Positions 7,538 to 59,901 of a stretch of 64,000 nt of DNA are shown piece by piece (the stretch's first letter is position 1; each line of letters begins with the position of its first letter). The notes below the pieces were generated by a model. The model did not search any database and was not told where the DNA came from. It saw only the letters and a list, made by a program, of their open reading frames with translations. The stretch covers positions 5,141,001 to 5,205,000 of the forward strand of contig NZ_CP136920.1 in the NCBI RefSeq assembly GCF_033100135.1, read 5' to 3'. Source of the stretch: Rubellicoccus peritrichatus. Its GTDB lineage: Bacteria; Verrucomicrobiota; Verrucomicrobiia; Opitutales; Cerasicoccaceae. A program made the translations under genes and the position numbers.

Positions 7538-7612
7538 TATTGGTAGGGCGCCGTCTCCAGACAAGCCGAACGTCAAGGTGGCGGCTTGTCTGGAGACGGC
7601 GCCCTACCAATA
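7538..7612. repeat. Long perfect palindromic intergenic element (31-bp arms)
   Basis: Positions 7538-7568 are the exact reverse complement of 7582-7612, separated by a 13-base loop. The outer ends read TATTGGTAGGGCG and CGCCCTACCAATA. The arms are GC-rich inside. The element starts 6 bp after the nspC stop and ends 63 bp before the mfd start. It has no T-run, so it is more like a dispersed REP/MITE-type palindrome than a canonical terminator, though such a stem would also protect or end the nspC transcript. Confidence 0.85.
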
Positions 7613-12227: not shown

Positions 12228-14051
12228 TTGATTATCTTAAAGGAAAGAACAGTTCGGCTCTGGCTTGGGATCACCCTGGCCGTCTTGTTGGCCGGGTGCT
12301 CGAAACCACCCAAGGTCAAACGAGGTGAGTTCCCTTTACCAGAAGGAGTTGAGGTCGCAGAATGCGAAACGGGGAAATACGGTGGTGCCTTTGTCATTTC
12401 AGAAACCACCGAGCCAAAAACCTTTAATTTCCTCGTTCCAGCAGATCAATCGTCAAACCTTGCTCAAAGCCGCTTCCAGGAAGGATTAGTGGGTTGGGAC
12501 CCAATGGAGACCAAAACCATCCCTGCTCTGGCCACCTCCTGGGAAATCGCTGACGACAAGAAGACTTACACCTTTCATCTGCGTAAGGGAGTCAAATGGA
12601 ACGACGGCGAGCCGTTCACCGCCGATGATGTCATATTTACCTTCGATGCGATCTTCGCTGAGGAGGAAGATCCGGACACGGGTGAGATGAAGCCACGCTT
12701 TCCCAGCCGCTATATCGCCCAATACACGTTTGGCGGCAAAAGGCTGGAGTACCGAAAGGTCGATGATTACACGGTGGAATTTTTCACCCCAAACATCTAT
12801 TCTCCCTTCATCAATGACATTGGTTTTGTTGCCATTTTTCCCAAACACAAACTCTACGATAGCTACCTTGATGGCACGCTACTAGAGCAATGGTCTTCTC
12901 AAACAGCAATCGATCATCCAGAGGAACTCGTTGGGACCGGCCCCTTCAAGGTATTCTCTTACAAGCCGGGCGAACGTATCGTCTTTGAAGCCAATCCGCA
13001 TTACTGGCGTGCCGACCGGGACGGTAACCGACTCCCCTATCTCGACTTCCTCGTTACCAAGTTTGTCAAGGATGCTAACACACAAACCATCCTGTTTGCC
13101 ACTGGAGAACTGGATGCAGCCGCCATTTCAGCAACCGATGAAGCATGGGTCCGCATGGGTGAGGAGACTTATGACTTCACACTCTACAACCGCGGTCCCG
13201 CACCAAGCATAGGATTCATGTGGTTCAACCTCAATCCGGGAGAGAACGACGAAGGCGTGCCCTATGTGAAACCTTACAAATTGAAATGGTTCAAAGACAA
13301 ACGTTTCCGGCAAGCGGTCATGTATGCCTTTGATCGCGAAGGTATCGCAAAAGGCGTTTACTTCGGTCGCGCCGAACCGCTTGACTCGGTTATCAGCCAG
13401 GGTAATCCCAAATGGCATAATCCCAATGTCAGAAAATACAGGCGGGATATGGATAAGGCGCGGGCTCTTTTGAAAGACGCAGGATTCACCTGGGATGCAG
13501 AAGACAATCTTATTGGCCCGAAAGGCAATCCTGTTGAGATCGAGCTTATGCTTTTCGAAGGCAGTCAGCGTATCACAGAAATGGCGACGACACTCAAACA
13601 GGACCTGGCTGAACTAGGCATCAATCTTAGGTTGAGCTATGTAGACTTCGGAGTCGTCATACAGAAGCTGGACAATACTTTTGATTACGAAATGAGTGTC
13701 ATTGGCTGGGGCTCTTCAGCAGGTGCAACGGATCCATCTGGTGGAAAATCACTTTATATCAGCAGTGGAATCTACCACGTCTGGCACCCAAAGCAGGAAA
13801 CTCCGGCCACCGAATGGGAGGCGCGTATCGATGAACTGATGAATGCTCAGGAACAAACATTCGATGAATCCGAACGGATAAAGTTCTTTGGTGAAATCCA
13901 GGAAATCTTTGCCGAAGAAGCTCCTCTCTTTTTTATGATGACTCCTTATGGTTACAGCGGGATTAAAAACAAGTGGAACAACGTCCGTGTCCCACCTTCC
14001 GGCACCTTGATCTGGAACATTGATGAACTCTGGACAGAGGAAGTTGAATAA
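12228..14051 (+). CDS. Peptide/oligopeptide ABC transporter substrate-binding lipoprotein
   Basis: The 607-residue protein is an SBP_bac_5 (OppA/DppA class) solute-binding protein. It begins with a lipoprotein signal whose lipobox is LLAGC (residues 20-24), so it should be anchored by an acylated Cys24. The family blocks are visible, including WKIADDKKTYTFHLRKGVKW-like and FRQAVMYAFDREGIAKG-like segments. The start appears to be a TTG at 12228, because no ATG or GTG upstream of the lipobox is in frame; this start is uncertain. It leads an operon with a fused permease and two ATPases. A GxxExxY cassette lies between it and the permease. Substrate specificity cannot be read from the sequence. 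Confidence 0.93.
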   Translation: MIILKERTVRLWLGITLAVLLAGCSKPPKVKRGEFPLPEGVEVAECETGKYGGAFVISETTEPKTFNFLVPADQSSNLAQSRFQEGLVGWDPMETKTIPALATSWEIADDKKTYTFHLRKGVKWNDGEPFTADDVIFTFDAIFAEEEDPDTGEMKPRFPSRYIAQYTFGGKRLEYRKVDDYTVEFFTPNIYSPFINDIGFVAIFPKHKLYDSYLDGTLLEQWSSQTAIDHPEELVGTGPFKVFSYKPGERIVFEANPHYWRADRDGNRLPYLDFLVTKFVKDANTQTILFATGELDAAAISATDEAWVRMGEETYDFTLYNRGPAPSIGFMWFNLNPGENDEGVPYVKPYKLKWFKDKRFRQAVMYAFDREGIAKGVYFGRAEPLDSVISQGNPKWHNPNVRKYRRDMDKARALLKDAGFTWDAEDNLIGPKGNPVEIELMLFEGSQRITEMATTLKQDLAELGINLRLSYVDFGVVIQKLDNTFDYEMSVIGWGSSAGATDPSGGKSLYISSGIYHVWHPKQETPATEWEARIDELMNAQEQTFDESERIKFFGEIQEIFAEEAPLFFMMTPYGYSGIKNKWNNVRVPPSGTLIWNIDELWTEEVE

Positions 14052-14056
14052 TATGA

Positions 14057-14505
14057 CTCTCGCAAAGGCGCAAAGACCGCAAAGTATGACTGAGAATGAA
14101 CTTGGTCGAGAGGTTATCGATGCAGCGATAATAGTTCACCGCGAACTTGGTCCCGGGCTCCTCGAAAGCGTTTATGAAATCATCCTTCTCGATGAATTAT
14201 GTAAGCGTGGATTAAATGCCAAACGACAAGTGCCGATTTCTTTTGAATGTAGAGGTATCCATTTTGATGAAGCTTTTCGAGCAGATATCATTCTAGAAGA
14301 CAAAGTGATCCTGGAATTAAAGTCAGTCGAAGCATTGAACAATGCCCACAAAAAACAGCTCCTGACATATCTCAAACTCACAGAAATGAAACTAGGTTTC
14401 CTCTTAAACTTTGGCGAAGTATTAATGAAAAATGGGATCGTTAGGACAGTTCATGGTCTTTCAGAATCATAAATTTACTTGGCGCCCTTTGCGCCTTTGC
14501 GAGAG
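14057..14505. mobile_element. GxxExxY cassette bounded by 19-bp perfect inverted repeats
   Basis: The left end CTCTCGCAAAGGCGCAAAG (14057-14075) is the exact reverse complement of 14487-14505. The left repeat continues with a further imperfect CCGCAAAG unit. The 449-bp unit carries one gene, GxxExxY, in the same direction as the surrounding operon. It begins 5 bp after the lipoprotein stop and ends 10 bp before the permease start, so it sits cleanly in an intergenic gap. No transposase is encoded, so movement would need help in trans, and I see no obvious target duplication. Confidence 0.75.
14086..14472 (+). CDS. GxxExxY family protein (PD-(D/E)XK nuclease-like)
   Basis: I chose the ATG at 14086 (128 residues, MTENELGREVIDAAI), because family homology begins there. 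In-frame ATGs at 14053 and 14020 would add residues translated from the inverted repeat. The name motif is present as GLLESVY within HRELGPGLLESVYE. A PD-(D/E)XK-like core is suggested by FRADIIL followed by VILELKSV, and the family is related to the PDDEXK_3 group. No biochemical role is established for this family that I can cite. The gene lies inside a repeat-bounded cassette between the binding-protein and permease genes of a peptide transporter, where it has no obvious functional link to transport. Confidence 0.85.
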   Translation: MTENELGREVIDAAIIVHRELGPGLLESVYEIILLDELCKRGLNAKRQVPISFECRGIHFDEAFRADIILEDKVILELKSVEALNNAHKKQLLTYLKLTEMKLGFLLNFGEVLMKNGIVRTVHGLSES

Positions 14506-14515
14506 AATATATTAA

Positions 14516-16843
14516 ATGACAGCTTTTATCATCAGACGTATACTGGCAATGATTCCGATTCTTTTTGGAGTCAGCGTGCTGGTCTTCTATCTGATGAACC
14601 TTGCTCCTGGTGACTTTCTCGATGAGGCGCGAGCGCGTCCCGATATCTCGGATGAACTGGTAGCCCAATTAGAAAGAGAATACGGGCTGAAGGATTCTGA
14701 GGGTAATCCCACAGCATGGTACGTTCAATATGCCTACTGGTTGAACAGCCTTTCGCCCATCAAGTTCATTAGCGAAGACGGAGATTTCTTTTCAGACATA
14801 CGCACAGGCAAACCAAGTCTCGGACAATCCTGGGCATACAATATTCCGGTCTTCGATCTAATAAAACAACGACTACCTGCGACACTTATCCTCTCATTGA
14901 GTGCTCTCATCTTTGCCTGGATAATTGCTATCCCATTAGGTGTATTGGCTGCGATCAAACGTAACTCATGGTTTGACAAAATTTCGGCATTGTTCGCCTA
15001 TAGCGCGCTTTCGATACCTGAGTTTTTTCTCGCCATTCTCATGGTCTACTTTGCCGCCAAGACCGGATGGTTTCCAACTGGCGGACGCTCCTCGATCTCA
15101 AGTGAATTCATGCCTGCGGTGGGAAGTTTCTTTGATCACATTTATCACCTGATCCTGCCAACCTTTGTTTTGGGAGTCGGAGGCATTGCCGGGATGATGC
15201 GTATCATGCGTGCGAACTTCCTCGATTACCTGCACGCCGAGTTTGTCAAAACCGCACGCGCCAAAGGTCTTAAAGAGAAGGTCGTGATGTTCCGTCATGT
15301 GCTGCGCAATGCCATCAACCCCCTGCTGACAGCTTTGGGCTTTGCATTCGCCAGCTTACTGAGTGGCGCCATTCTGGTGGAGAAGGTTATGAACTACCCT
15401 GGGCTCGGCCTGTTGGTCTTCGAAGCATTCTTTCGCAAAGATCAGGCAGTCGTCCTTGCAGCTGTTCTGATGGGGGTCACTATGTTGATGTTCGGCAATC
15501 TCTTCGCAGACCTGCTTCTGGCCTGGAGCGATCCGCGTATCCGTCTCGAGAACCCAAGCGAAGCCGGCCAAAGAAAAGGCCAATGGCGCCCAGCTTCGAT
15601 CCTGATTGCGGTGGTCGTTCTACTCTTGCTTAGTTTTTCATTAGTTCCCTGGGATAGCCGCGAAGCCATGCAAACGATGCTTCTATGGGTCAAGTGGATC
15701 GGCCTCGCTGGAATCATAATCTGTATTGGCATTATTGGCAAAATCGCCTGGCCAACACTGAGCAATATTTTTTCTGAATTGATAAAACGGCCACTCGGCG
15801 TTGCCGTCTCAGCAATTCTTCTTGCCCTTTATGGCTGTGCCCTCTTTGCCCCATTCCTCGCCACGCAAGAGGCATCCACACAAAACCTGACTCAAACCTT
15901 TCATCCACCAAGTGCCTTTACCTGGGATAGCGGCCTGGCAGTAAAAGCTTATGAGAACGTCGATCCGACAATCGCCAAATATGTTCCAGTTGAAGACATA
16001 ACGATCCCTGTTAAACTCTTTGGGAAAGGATTCGAATACAAACTATTTGGTTTCATTCCAACCAGTCGGCATCTGGTTCTCCCCGATTACGAAGCACTCG
16101 AAGCCAAACTTGGTGACACAATTGATCCGGCAAAGTATCCAGTTTATCTTCTCGGCAGCGATTCAACTGGTCGCGATGTTTTCTCCCGACTCCTTTTTGG
16201 CTCACAGATATCACTGACCATTGGGCTGATTGGCATATCCATCACCATGACCATTGGGTTCCTCATTGGTGGACTTGCTGGTTACTTCGGTGGGCGCTTT
16301 GACTTCCTGGCCATGCGACTGGTCGAGTTCCTCATGGCAATCCCTGGTTTGTACCTCCTTCTTGCTCTGCGGTCTGCACTGGCCCCTCATTTTGAGTCGG
16401 CCCAGATGTTCATTGTCATTATCATTATTTTATCACTTGTCGGCTGGGCTGGAACTGCCCGCGTTCTTCGTGGAATGAGCCTGTCGATTCGCAACCGGCA
16501 ATTCATTACCGCCGCCGAAAGCATGGGCCAAAGCACAGGGCAAATTCTGGTAAAGCATCTCCTGCCGAACCTTGCCAGTTATCTTCTGGTGGCAGCAACA
16601 CTCAGCATCCCCGGATACATTCTCGGTGAGGCAGCACTCAGTTTCCTGGGACTCGGTATTCAAGAACCATCGGCTTCATGGGGTCTGATGCTTCAACAAC
16701 CTCAACGCGATTTGAAGGTCTTCTTTCTAAACTTCTGGTGGCTGTTGACGCCTGGCGTCGCTATTTTCATCACAGTCATTGCCTTCAACCTCCTCGGCGA
16801 CGTCTTGCGCGACATCGTTGACCCAAAGATGAAACGCCAGTAG
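14516..16843 (+). CDS. Fused OppB-OppC peptide ABC transporter permease
   Basis: This 775-residue protein joins two permeases that are normally separate. Residues 1 to about 345 are an OppB/DppB-type permease: it opens with RRILAMIPILFGVSVLVF and has an EAA-like loop near 241-271 (FVKTARAKGLKEKVVMFRHV). Residues about 430-775 are an OppC/DppC-type permease: GSDSTGRDVFSRLLFGSQIS, then a second EAA-like loop near 661-691. A linker with about two extra hydrophobic segments (about 365-425) connects them, which may restore topology. The fusion would supply the whole membrane channel as one chain. It follows the GxxExxY cassette and precedes two ATPase genes. Confidence 0.95.
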   Translation: MTAFIIRRILAMIPILFGVSVLVFYLMNLAPGDFLDEARARPDISDELVAQLEREYGLKDSEGNPTAWYVQYAYWLNSLSPIKFISEDGDFFSDIRTGKPSLGQSWAYNIPVFDLIKQRLPATLILSLSALIFAWIIAIPLGVLAAIKRNSWFDKISALFAYSALSIPEFFLAILMVYFAAKTGWFPTGGRSSISSEFMPAVGSFFDHIYHLILPTFVLGVGGIAGMMRIMRANFLDYLHAEFVKTARAKGLKEKVVMFRHVLRNAINPLLTALGFAFASLLSGAILVEKVMNYPGLGLLVFEAFFRKDQAVVLAAVLMGVTMLMFGNLFADLLLAWSDPRIRLENPSEAGQRKGQWRPASILIAVVVLLLLSFSLVPWDSREAMQTMLLWVKWIGLAGIIICIGIIGKIAWPTLSNIFSELIKRPLGVAVSAILLALYGCALFAPFLATQEASTQNLTQTFHPPSAFTWDSGLAVKAYENVDPTIAKYVPVEDITIPVKLFGKGFEYKLFGFIPTSRHLVLPDYEALEAKLGDTIDPAKYPVYLLGSDSTGRDVFSRLLFGSQISLTIGLIGISITMTIGFLIGGLAGYFGGRFDFLAMRLVEFLMAIPGLYLLLALRSALAPHFESAQMFIVIIIILSLVGWAGTARVLRGMSLSIRNRQFITAAESMGQSTGQILVKHLLPNLASYLLVAATLSIPGYILGEAALSFLGLGIQEPSASWGLMLQQPQRDLKVFFLNFWWLLTPGVAIFITVIAFNLLGDVLRDIVDPKMKRQ

Positions 16844-17730: not shown

Positions 17731-18224
17731 GCGGATTACGAAATGTGGATTGCGGATTAAAAAATGAAATAAATCATTGAAGAATGAATTCTGACAGTTT
17801 CAAGCAACGCACTTTCGAATTTGCCAGTGTAATCATTGATATCGCTGAGGCATTTCCAAACAACATGAGCTCGAACGTTGTGAGGAGACAAATGATCCGA
17901 TCAGCCACTTCAGTTGGCGCAAACTACAGAGCTGCATGCCTCGCCAAATCTACAGCAGACTTCATCCATAAAATGGGGACTGTCGAAGAAGAAGCTGACG
18001 AAACAGCATTCTGGTTGGAAATGTCTATTGCTAAGAATTTTGCTGAAACTTCGAAACTGGAAAAGTATCTTCGTGAAGCAGAGGAGCTTGTGGCTATAAC
18101 TGTAGCGTCTATTAAGACTGCTCGCAATCGGACTAAAAACAAATGACTCAATCAACACACAAGGAAGAGCGTAATAGTTCGGAACTTTCAAAATCCGAAA
18201 TCCGAAATTCGAATTCCGAAATCC
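17731..18224. mobile_element. Four-helix-bundle gene cassette bounded by GGATT-type inverted repeats
   Basis: The left end (17731-17758) contains tandem GCGGATT/GGATT units and reads GGATTGCGGATT towards the gene. The right end (18192-18224) reads AATCCGAAATCC and related units, that is, the same motif in the opposite orientation, GGATTTCGGATT. The inverted repeats are imperfect. The unit of about 494 bp lies between the two ATPase genes and carries one four-helix-bundle gene in the operon direction. The left repeat starts one base after the OppD-like stop. The right repeat is translated as part of the OppF-like N-terminus. Confidence 0.65.
17784..18146 (+). CDS. Four helix bundle protein (S23/23S rRNA intervening-sequence protein family)
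   Basis: This 120-residue all-helical protein has the family core [14 protein letters not shown] followed by [17 protein letters not shown]. The family was first noted as open frames in intervening sequences of 23S rRNA genes and is widespread as small intergenic genes; its function is unclear. The stop overlaps the ATG of the OppF-like gene (ATGA at 18143-18146), so translation of the downstream ATPase may now be coupled to this gene. It has no evident role in peptide transport. Confidence 0.88.
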
Positions 18225-53341: not shown

Positions 53342-53369
53342 CCAGGGGTTGTTTCAAAACAACCCCTGG
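53342..53369 (+). terminator. Second hairpin after paralogue 1, likely terminator
   Basis: CCAGGGGTTGTT (53342-53353) pairs perfectly with AACAACCCCTGG (53358-53369), with a four-base loop, followed by TTTGCG. The matching position after paralogue 2 has a homologous hairpin (58613-58640), so the duplication includes the 3' flank. Confidence 0.65.
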
Positions 53370-59818: not shown

Positions 59819-59901
59819 CCACAGAGGCACAGAGAGCACAGAGTTTCTCTAATCGATTAGTAGATATTATTCCTAAATCTGTATTCTCTGTGCCTCTGTG
59901 G
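59819..59901. repeat. Solo hairpin of CACAGAGGCACAGAG repeats (MITE-like)
   Basis: CCACAGAGGCACAGAGA (59819-59835) is the exact reverse complement of 59885-59901. A further GCACAGAG follows the left arm. The 83-bp unit fills most of the 121-bp gap between the fmt start and the stop of the upstream co-directional gene. Translated on the plus strand, the left arm gives TTEAQRAQ, a phrase that I recognise from mis-started GxxExxY proteins. I read it as an empty relative of the GxxExxY cassette. Confidence 0.65.

Follow-up and report, generated by a model that had tools for sequence, protein, structure and literature searches.

What is a single small gene of the GxxExxY family, enclosed by inverted repeats, doing in the middle of a transporter operon? 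The locus lies between oppA and oppB in a 64-kb stretch of DNA (hereafter the window) from a 5.8-Mb genome assembled as one contig. The initial annotation of this stretch suggested that a nuclease-fold gene within terminal repeats could be a self-targeting element that cuts repeat sites or copies itself into them, rather than a passive gene.

Inspection bore out the underlying description of the repeats (Table 1): the termini at 14057-14075 and 14487-14505, said to be exact reverse complements, are perfect over the outer 19 nt, and the CGCAAAG units, said to recur imperfectly inward, form three CGCAAAG-like heptamers in each of two 30-nt inverted arms that are 90% complementary overall. Within the 64-kb window the arm word GCAAAGGCGCAAAG, allowing at most one mismatch, has two matches, both of them in these arms, compared with a mean of 0.06 and a maximum of 1 in 100 shuffles. 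The enclosed gene, read from its ATG to its stop codon, is a clear member of Pfam PF13366 PDDEXK_3 (E 1.2e-38; 132.5 bits against a cut-off of 22) and of NCBIfam TIGR04256 GxxExxY (E 1.5e-38; 131.7 bits against 35). It is flanked on the same strand by oppA (12228-14051) and by oppBC (14516-16843), the latter a single 775-aa ORF in which OppB and OppC are fused. Searched with Rfam at the gathering threshold, the whole window yielded three tRNAs and nothing else. Two further palindromes were recorded in the window: a perfect, terminator-like one of 28 nt (53342-53369), and a strong one beginning AGACAAGCCGAACGTC (7538-7612) that is probably an ordinary REP element, since it resembles the flank of a Y1-transposase-like place (L178).

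Table 1. Features of the window, with positions counted from its first nucleotide.
Feature	Position	Strand	Description
Whole insertion	14052..14515		From oppA stop (14051) to oppBC start (14516); 464 nt
Left arm	14057..14086	+	CTCT followed by heptamers CGCAAAG, CGCAAAG, CGCAAAG; spacers of 1 and 2 nt
GxxExxY (PDDEXK_3) gene	14086..14472	+	128 aa; predicted RecB/Cas4-like PD-(D/E)XK fold; E27, D67, E77, K79 and Q91 present
Right arm	14476..14505	+	Reverse complement of left arm; units on other strand CGCAAAG, CGCAAAG, CGCCAAG
Four-helix IVP gene (PF05635/TIGR02436)	17784..18146	+	Between oppD-like and oppF-like genes
Gene-less hairpin	59819..59901		Left arm of three CACAGAG units; right arm of two plus a third, changed unit

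The occupied junction was compared with those of relatives by using the OppB start as a query in 54 related genomes. Twenty junctions were read, one of which (L058) was dropped for an upstream gene unlike oppA; distances were measured up to where the OppB alignment begins (from a second alignment piece for L048, L051, L052, L053 and L057), and OppA was identified by eye from its C-terminus. In all 19 relatives with oppA upstream, nine of them belonging to the window's own family, the distance is -4 to +15 nt, compared with 464 nt in the window genome; the GxxExxY unit is therefore an insertion into a compact opp operon, and the empty sites that the initial annotation had thought worth seeking exist in 19 genomes. 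The arms are predicted to pair in the opp mRNA, which may make the insertion tolerable.

The encoded protein had been credited with a PD-(D/E)XK-like pattern, and the two segments named, FRADIIL and ELKSV, do hold D67 and E77-x-K79, respectively. An AlphaFold2 model built from 74 sequences (pLDDT 95.5) contains the corresponding core, and this predicted fold, together with the D-(E)xK-QxxxY residues, is that of a RecB/Cas4-like nuclease. With a structural aligner the best match was SSO0001 (4ic1_G; Z 9.6, rmsd 3.3, 99 aligned), which we take to be Cas4-like, followed by 3ijm, a restriction-endonuclease-like protein (Z 8.6); Cas4, Hjc, AddAB and restriction enzymes fell below Z 8, where a match may mean a common arrangement only. 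Foldseek returned no match at E <= 0.001, its best being SSO0001 (1.4e-3) and then lambda exonuclease, and a PDB sequence search with the protein gave nothing better than E 0.27. In PHROGs a single CRISPR/Cas-associated family matched, weakly (E 1e-4). Among 184 homologues, in which at least two genes are counted twice through their presence in both of the sets described below, E27, Y30, K79 and Q91 occur in all, D67 in 183, E or D at position 77 in 184 and Y95 in 177. Of 18 orthologous pairs, the nine with a computable value (synonymous sites unsaturated) gave dN/dS of 0.05-0.20, three of these with dS >1. The modelled fold, the conserved active site and these ratios together argue that the gene is maintained as a working nuclease-like protein under purifying selection. 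The nuclease label itself already existed in the Pfam family name.

Purifying selection would also suit a defence or toxin-antitoxin unit with the hairpin repeats as its regulator, and in PADLOC the protein weakly matched profiles for Cas4 and for RT-associated PDDEXK proteins (E 0.0009-0.003). Those matches, however, are the ones that the fold family itself would bring, and the unit is a lone insertion in a transporter operon with no partner gene; we attach very little probability to such a role.

Whether the arms belong to the gene can be judged from other members of the family. The window genome contains six full PF13366 genes and one fragment, and a wider set of 116 loci was drawn from the 29 of the 54 related genomes that carry the family. 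For each gene the upstream 250 nt were aligned with the reverse complement of the downstream 250 nt, and the largest score among 560 shuffles, 26, was taken as the threshold. The window element scores 45. Arms above threshold flank five of the six full genes of its genome, each pair built from a different word (CGCAAAG in the window element, then CACAAAG, CACGGAG, CACAAAA and CGGGAAG); the sixth gene (L002) has weak arms scoring 22. Among the relatives as a whole, 101 of the 112 full genes with both flanks exceeded the threshold, and the median score of a gene's own arms was 44, as against 17 for cross pairs; the true downstream partner ranked first of 112 for 56 genes and within the top five for 99. 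From 119 gene matches, seven had been left out of this test (short match, flank <200 nt, or duplicate upstream), and at least four near-full matches (G038:C2, G029:C10, G022:C18, G012:C45), besides short or frameshifted ones, lie outside the 116-locus set. Control comparisons of two 250-nt stretches 350 nt apart, taken at fixed steps, never exceeded 26 (0/181; 75 positions in the window and 106 in relatives' loci).

The same anatomy was found well beyond these relatives. A separate collection, comprising the best-scoring 80 of at least 578 loci and so favouring nearer relatives, included 79 with a gene match, of which 72 were testable; 64 of these passed (median 41.5, compared with 20 for cross pairs). 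Here the threshold was carried over from the relatives' set, and 24% of cross pairs also exceed it because CGCAAAG-like words are common between loci. Judged by record titles, the passing loci come from Verrucomicrobia, Planctomycetota, Lentisphaerae, Bacteroidetes, Cyanobacteria (Nostoc and others), Proteobacteria, Acidobacteria and more. At least two genes are present in both sets (L108/L250 and L132/L231). Thus the repeats that the initial annotation noted at one locus recur around most genes of the family, with no arms at the threshold for 11 of 112 genes among the relatives (L002 included) and 8 of 72 in the other collection.

When individual arms were parsed, the predominant architecture was that of the window element: 98 of 165 parsed elements carry exactly three heptamers in each arm, and 131 carry at least three in both, compared with 48 of 165 when letters were shuffled with the palindrome kept. 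The heptamer is common to both arms of an element and differs between elements; frequent versions are CGCAAAG, CACGGAG, CGCAGAG, CACAGAG, CGCGGAT, CACAAAA and CGGGAAG, with others seen less often (CGCTTAA among the rarer ones, and CACGGAT as a further example). End to end, the elements have a median size of 469 bp (139 elements), and by eye their outer edge is often TTTAAC or TCTCA/TCTCT.

The type of arm follows the type of protein, so that the proposed co-variation of repeats and gene is borne out. Over 146 elements heptamer distance fell from 2.60 for protein pairs below 30% identity to 0.80 for pairs above 70%; with the latter excluded, the Mantel correlation was -0.40 (0/999 permutations), and the trend also held within genomes (r -0.42, 168 pairs). 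On a protein tree of 121 sequences, built from only 112 columns and with many open forks, the last heptamer base (G, T or A) required 11 changes, compared with a mean of 34.6 for shuffled assignments (0/200 as low). This co-variation fits recognition of the arms by the protein; it also fits the plain common descent of gene and arms.

At one insertion site occupied in five genomes (L001, L070, L072, L107, L078), GxxExxY elements of four heptamer types are found (CACAAAG, CACAGAG, CACGAAG and CGCAAAG), the change being present in both arms; L078 may represent a re-insertion. Concerted evolution within orthologous groups was weak, differences among units within an arm being smaller than those between orthologues in only 3 of 12 pairs, and the contrast of 0.69 with 3.05 obtained for 98 elements is overstated through the parser's preference for similar words. 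Over 18 gap-free ortholog pairs (4 of 22 were skipped), which are not independent of one another, compensatory double changes between arms numbered 35 and other changes 81; without the misaligned pair L123/L117 (identity 0.35), which supplied 15 and 8 of these, the counts are 20 and 73 over 17 pairs.

Double changes that preserve pairing, such as the five to six separating L070 from L001 and L107, raise the question of whether the hairpin matters as RNA. Pairing of the arms in transcripts might let RNase III excise the insert, as happens with intervening sequences (IVS) of 23S rRNA. The element RNA is predicted to fold end to end (z -3.75, 0/100 shuffles as good), and the published precedent is close in form: the IVS of Coxiella, in the available passages of PMC4990558, measures 428-444 nt, has a 28-bp terminal stem and contains an S23p gene, and rRNA intervening sequences are described there as taking the place of helix tetraloops. 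Pairing alone, however, needs no repetition of one heptamer within an arm, and the modelled PD-(D/E)XK fold finds its best structural matches mostly among DNA nucleases, even if tRNA-splicing endonucleases are listed too. We consider removal by RNase III decidedly improbable for these units, and hold in equally low esteem the accompanying proposal that they spread by retro-copying or recombination, with the protein acting on the nucleic acid of that process.

The gene-bearing copies are of two ages. Only one recent duplication was seen, a pair in one contig of a single genome (L085/L122, G016) that is 95.5% identical over 465 bp, lies 2.3 kb apart and has unlike flanks, with no target-site duplication visible by eye. 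Many others are old and have been retained by vertical descent: 35 loci make up 14 groups, each at the same site in at least two genomes, one of these groups sharing one flank only. A presumed clean empty site for a further locus (L102) was rejected, three congeners having an unrelated ORF there and no exact ends being obtained. Terminal inverted repeats and a small median size might suggest an ordinary composite transposon or MITE. Against this, target-site duplications, as expected of a DDE insertion sequence or MITE, were absent over 139 elements, own flanks matching no better than cross pairs, the PDDEXK_3 gene is the only gene of the unit, and the arms vary from element to element; we regard such an identity as very unlikely. 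The sequence ATGAC, present before the left arm and again at the oppB start, was at one stage read as a 5-bp duplication and dropped, the 139-element statistic lending no support to duplications generally.

Hairpins of the same construction also occur with no gene. One lies in the window itself (59819-59901), between an unnamed gene and a neighbour that we take from its translation to be fmt-like; a 115-aa ORF runs through it on the opposite strand. With one mismatch allowed, GCAAAGGCGCAAAG has 28 matches in the window genome (the two element arms included), compared with 4 for the same pattern written backwards. The 29 genomes with the gene hold 384 matches against 93 for the backwards pattern, and the 25 without it 46 against 17. 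Family membership confounds this surplus of the gene-carrying genomes: the excess is almost entirely that of the window's own family (with counts such as 78 against 1 and 54 against 1), with G053 (14 against 1) an instance outside it. Within the family, gene-bearing arms included, eight of ten genomes have 15-78 matches against 1-5 backwards, and the other two 6-7 against 1. Many of the matches listed form facing pairs some 15-200 nt apart with no GxxExxY gene between them. Twenty such sites were chosen by hand from the matches, mostly where two face each other, and most of these have arms of this anatomy to left and right (L325 and L337 to one side only); inner sequence is common to some copies. 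By eye, six of the 20 (L319, L322, L323, L324, L328 and L336) consist of a hairpin inside a hairpin of a different heptamer, L322 and L323 being copies of each other.

A comparable situation was noted for a rarer word. In one genome (G041), a region of contig 116 at about 9-13 kb has a GxxExxY gene (L130) between CGCTTAA arms and, on either side of it, gene-less CGCTTAA hairpins. This is the only genome parsed with CGCTTAA genes (L130 and L135), and among the places listed intact CGCTTAA pairs are concentrated in it, mostly on one contig; the raw count at three mismatches is weak (29, compared with 18 for the control). The window genome's own Y1 transposases were considered as a source of the hairpins and rejected: by eye, the printed flanks of its three PF01797 places hold other palindromes and lack such heptamer arms.

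A different gene family also occupies repeats of this general kind. The window contains, separate from the GxxExxY unit but in the same opp operon, an IVP gene whose inverted repeats, of GGATT type, are weak (score 24, below 26); the right-hand one is read as part of the N-terminus of the protein that follows. Genes of the IVP (S23p) family are familiar from the intervening sequences of 23S rRNA (PMC4990558). Thirty of 31 IVP genes could be tested in the same way, and 20 exceeded 26 (median 34 against 17); the ten that did not include the window copy and the other IVP gene of its genome (L009, 17). Across the 54 related genomes, PF13366 and PF05635 are both present in 24, singly in 5 and 2, respectively, and both absent from 23 (Fisher p 2e-8, with genome size and kinship as confounders).

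These observations bear on whether the nuclease is the agent or the cargo. The hairpins could be independent miniature elements moved in trans by another enzyme, with GxxExxY and IVP genes as passengers in their loops and the nuclease serving a separate function. The arms around IVP genes, which have an unrelated fold, their occurrence in the same genomes and the nesting of hairpins seen by eye all speak for it. By contrast, the tracking of the nuclease tree by arm type across genomes and phyla would be unexpected unless arms and gene always travel together, and IVP arms, by eye, are mostly contiguous units of 7-8 nt of other sequence. We judge the passenger explanation unlikely; it remains our main doubt, because unrelated IVP genes so often lie in similar arms.

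We incline, with limited confidence, to a hairpin element of REPIN/RAYT-like or IVS-like kind whose nuclease acts on its own arms. The unit itself is a discrete element of about 450 bp, with inverted arms of three element-specific heptamers and a gene for a predicted RecB/Cas4-like nuclease in its loop. The nuclease would recognize the heptamers of its own arms, which probably present themselves folded into a hairpin or cruciform, and nick or cut there; host repair or replication could then copy hairpins, with or without the gene, to new sites, often the loops of existing hairpins. The pair would thus work as a RAYT does with its REPIN, through another class of enzyme. A gene-in-hairpin unit found in many phyla, alongside gene-less hairpins, has the appearance of a type of small mobile DNA that has so far escaped notice.

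A broader proposal can be put forward as a tentative one, of which we are more doubtful than persuaded: that GxxExxY nucleases mobilize a large, unrecognized class of hairpin DNA across phyla, using a code of recognition between protein and heptamer (three copies per arm), that insertion into loops generates the nesting, and that the IVP genes and 23S rRNA intervening sequences are a parallel branch. Activity of the nuclease on its own arms would assign both a role and a genomic setting to a widespread nuclease family, seemingly unstudied in the literature searched, and would account for the heptamer palindromes that are common between genes in many phyla. If the link between protein and heptamer reflects recognition, the family offers a ready-made set of small nucleases whose natural targets differ, and the same framework would allow the origin of rRNA intervening sequences to be tested.

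How do these units compare with systems already described? Neither the names nor the descriptions returned for PF13366 and TIGR04256 mention flanking arms or a mobile unit. GxxExxY is mentioned in PMC8934634. Within the open-licence literature no papers were found on PDDEXK_3 by name, none by title on bacterial elements with these repeat strings, and none linking GxxExxY genes to element-specific heptamer hairpins, a link that may have been published outside it. Both the family and the nuclease label were known beforehand, and the association with heptamer hairpins appears new within that literature. Cas4, Hjc and other small PD-(D/E)XK nucleases share the predicted fold, SSO0001 being the nearest in structure; the GxxExxY unit differs from them in having no CRISPR, intron or intein context. 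Short 7-nt intergenic units are also familiar from the STRR repeats of cyanobacteria. In Beggiatoaceae and others, heptamers such as TAACTGA are likewise repeated intergenically in unrelated genomes, but mostly as direct arrays before start codons, and the available passages describe no link to GxxExxY or IVP genes (PMC4679880).

Two systems come closer. With the 23S rRNA intervening sequences, as far as the accessible sections of PMC4990558 describe them, the window element shares a length of about 430-470 bp, one small gene enclosed by a terminal stem of about 28-30 bp and, for such inserts generally, a position at hairpin loops; it differs in encoding another protein family in place of PF05635, in lying between oppA and oppB instead of in 23S rRNA, and in arms made of three spaced heptamers. 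REPIN/RAYT systems, in the portion of PMC3116915 available, pair an enzyme gene with extragenic, dispersed hairpins of two inverted short repeats, and GxxExxY elements too are inverted short-repeat hairpins with dispersed gene-less copies. Their arms, by comparison, are triple heptamers specific to each element, with several types per genome, and their enzyme is predicted to be a PD-(D/E)XK nuclease, not a Y1/HUH transposase. RAYTs, for their part, are kept mostly vertically. Because its enzyme belongs to another class, the GxxExxY element is filed as a variant of REP-like hairpin elements and not as a member of REPIN/RAYT, and it would add a second enzyme class to elements of that kind.
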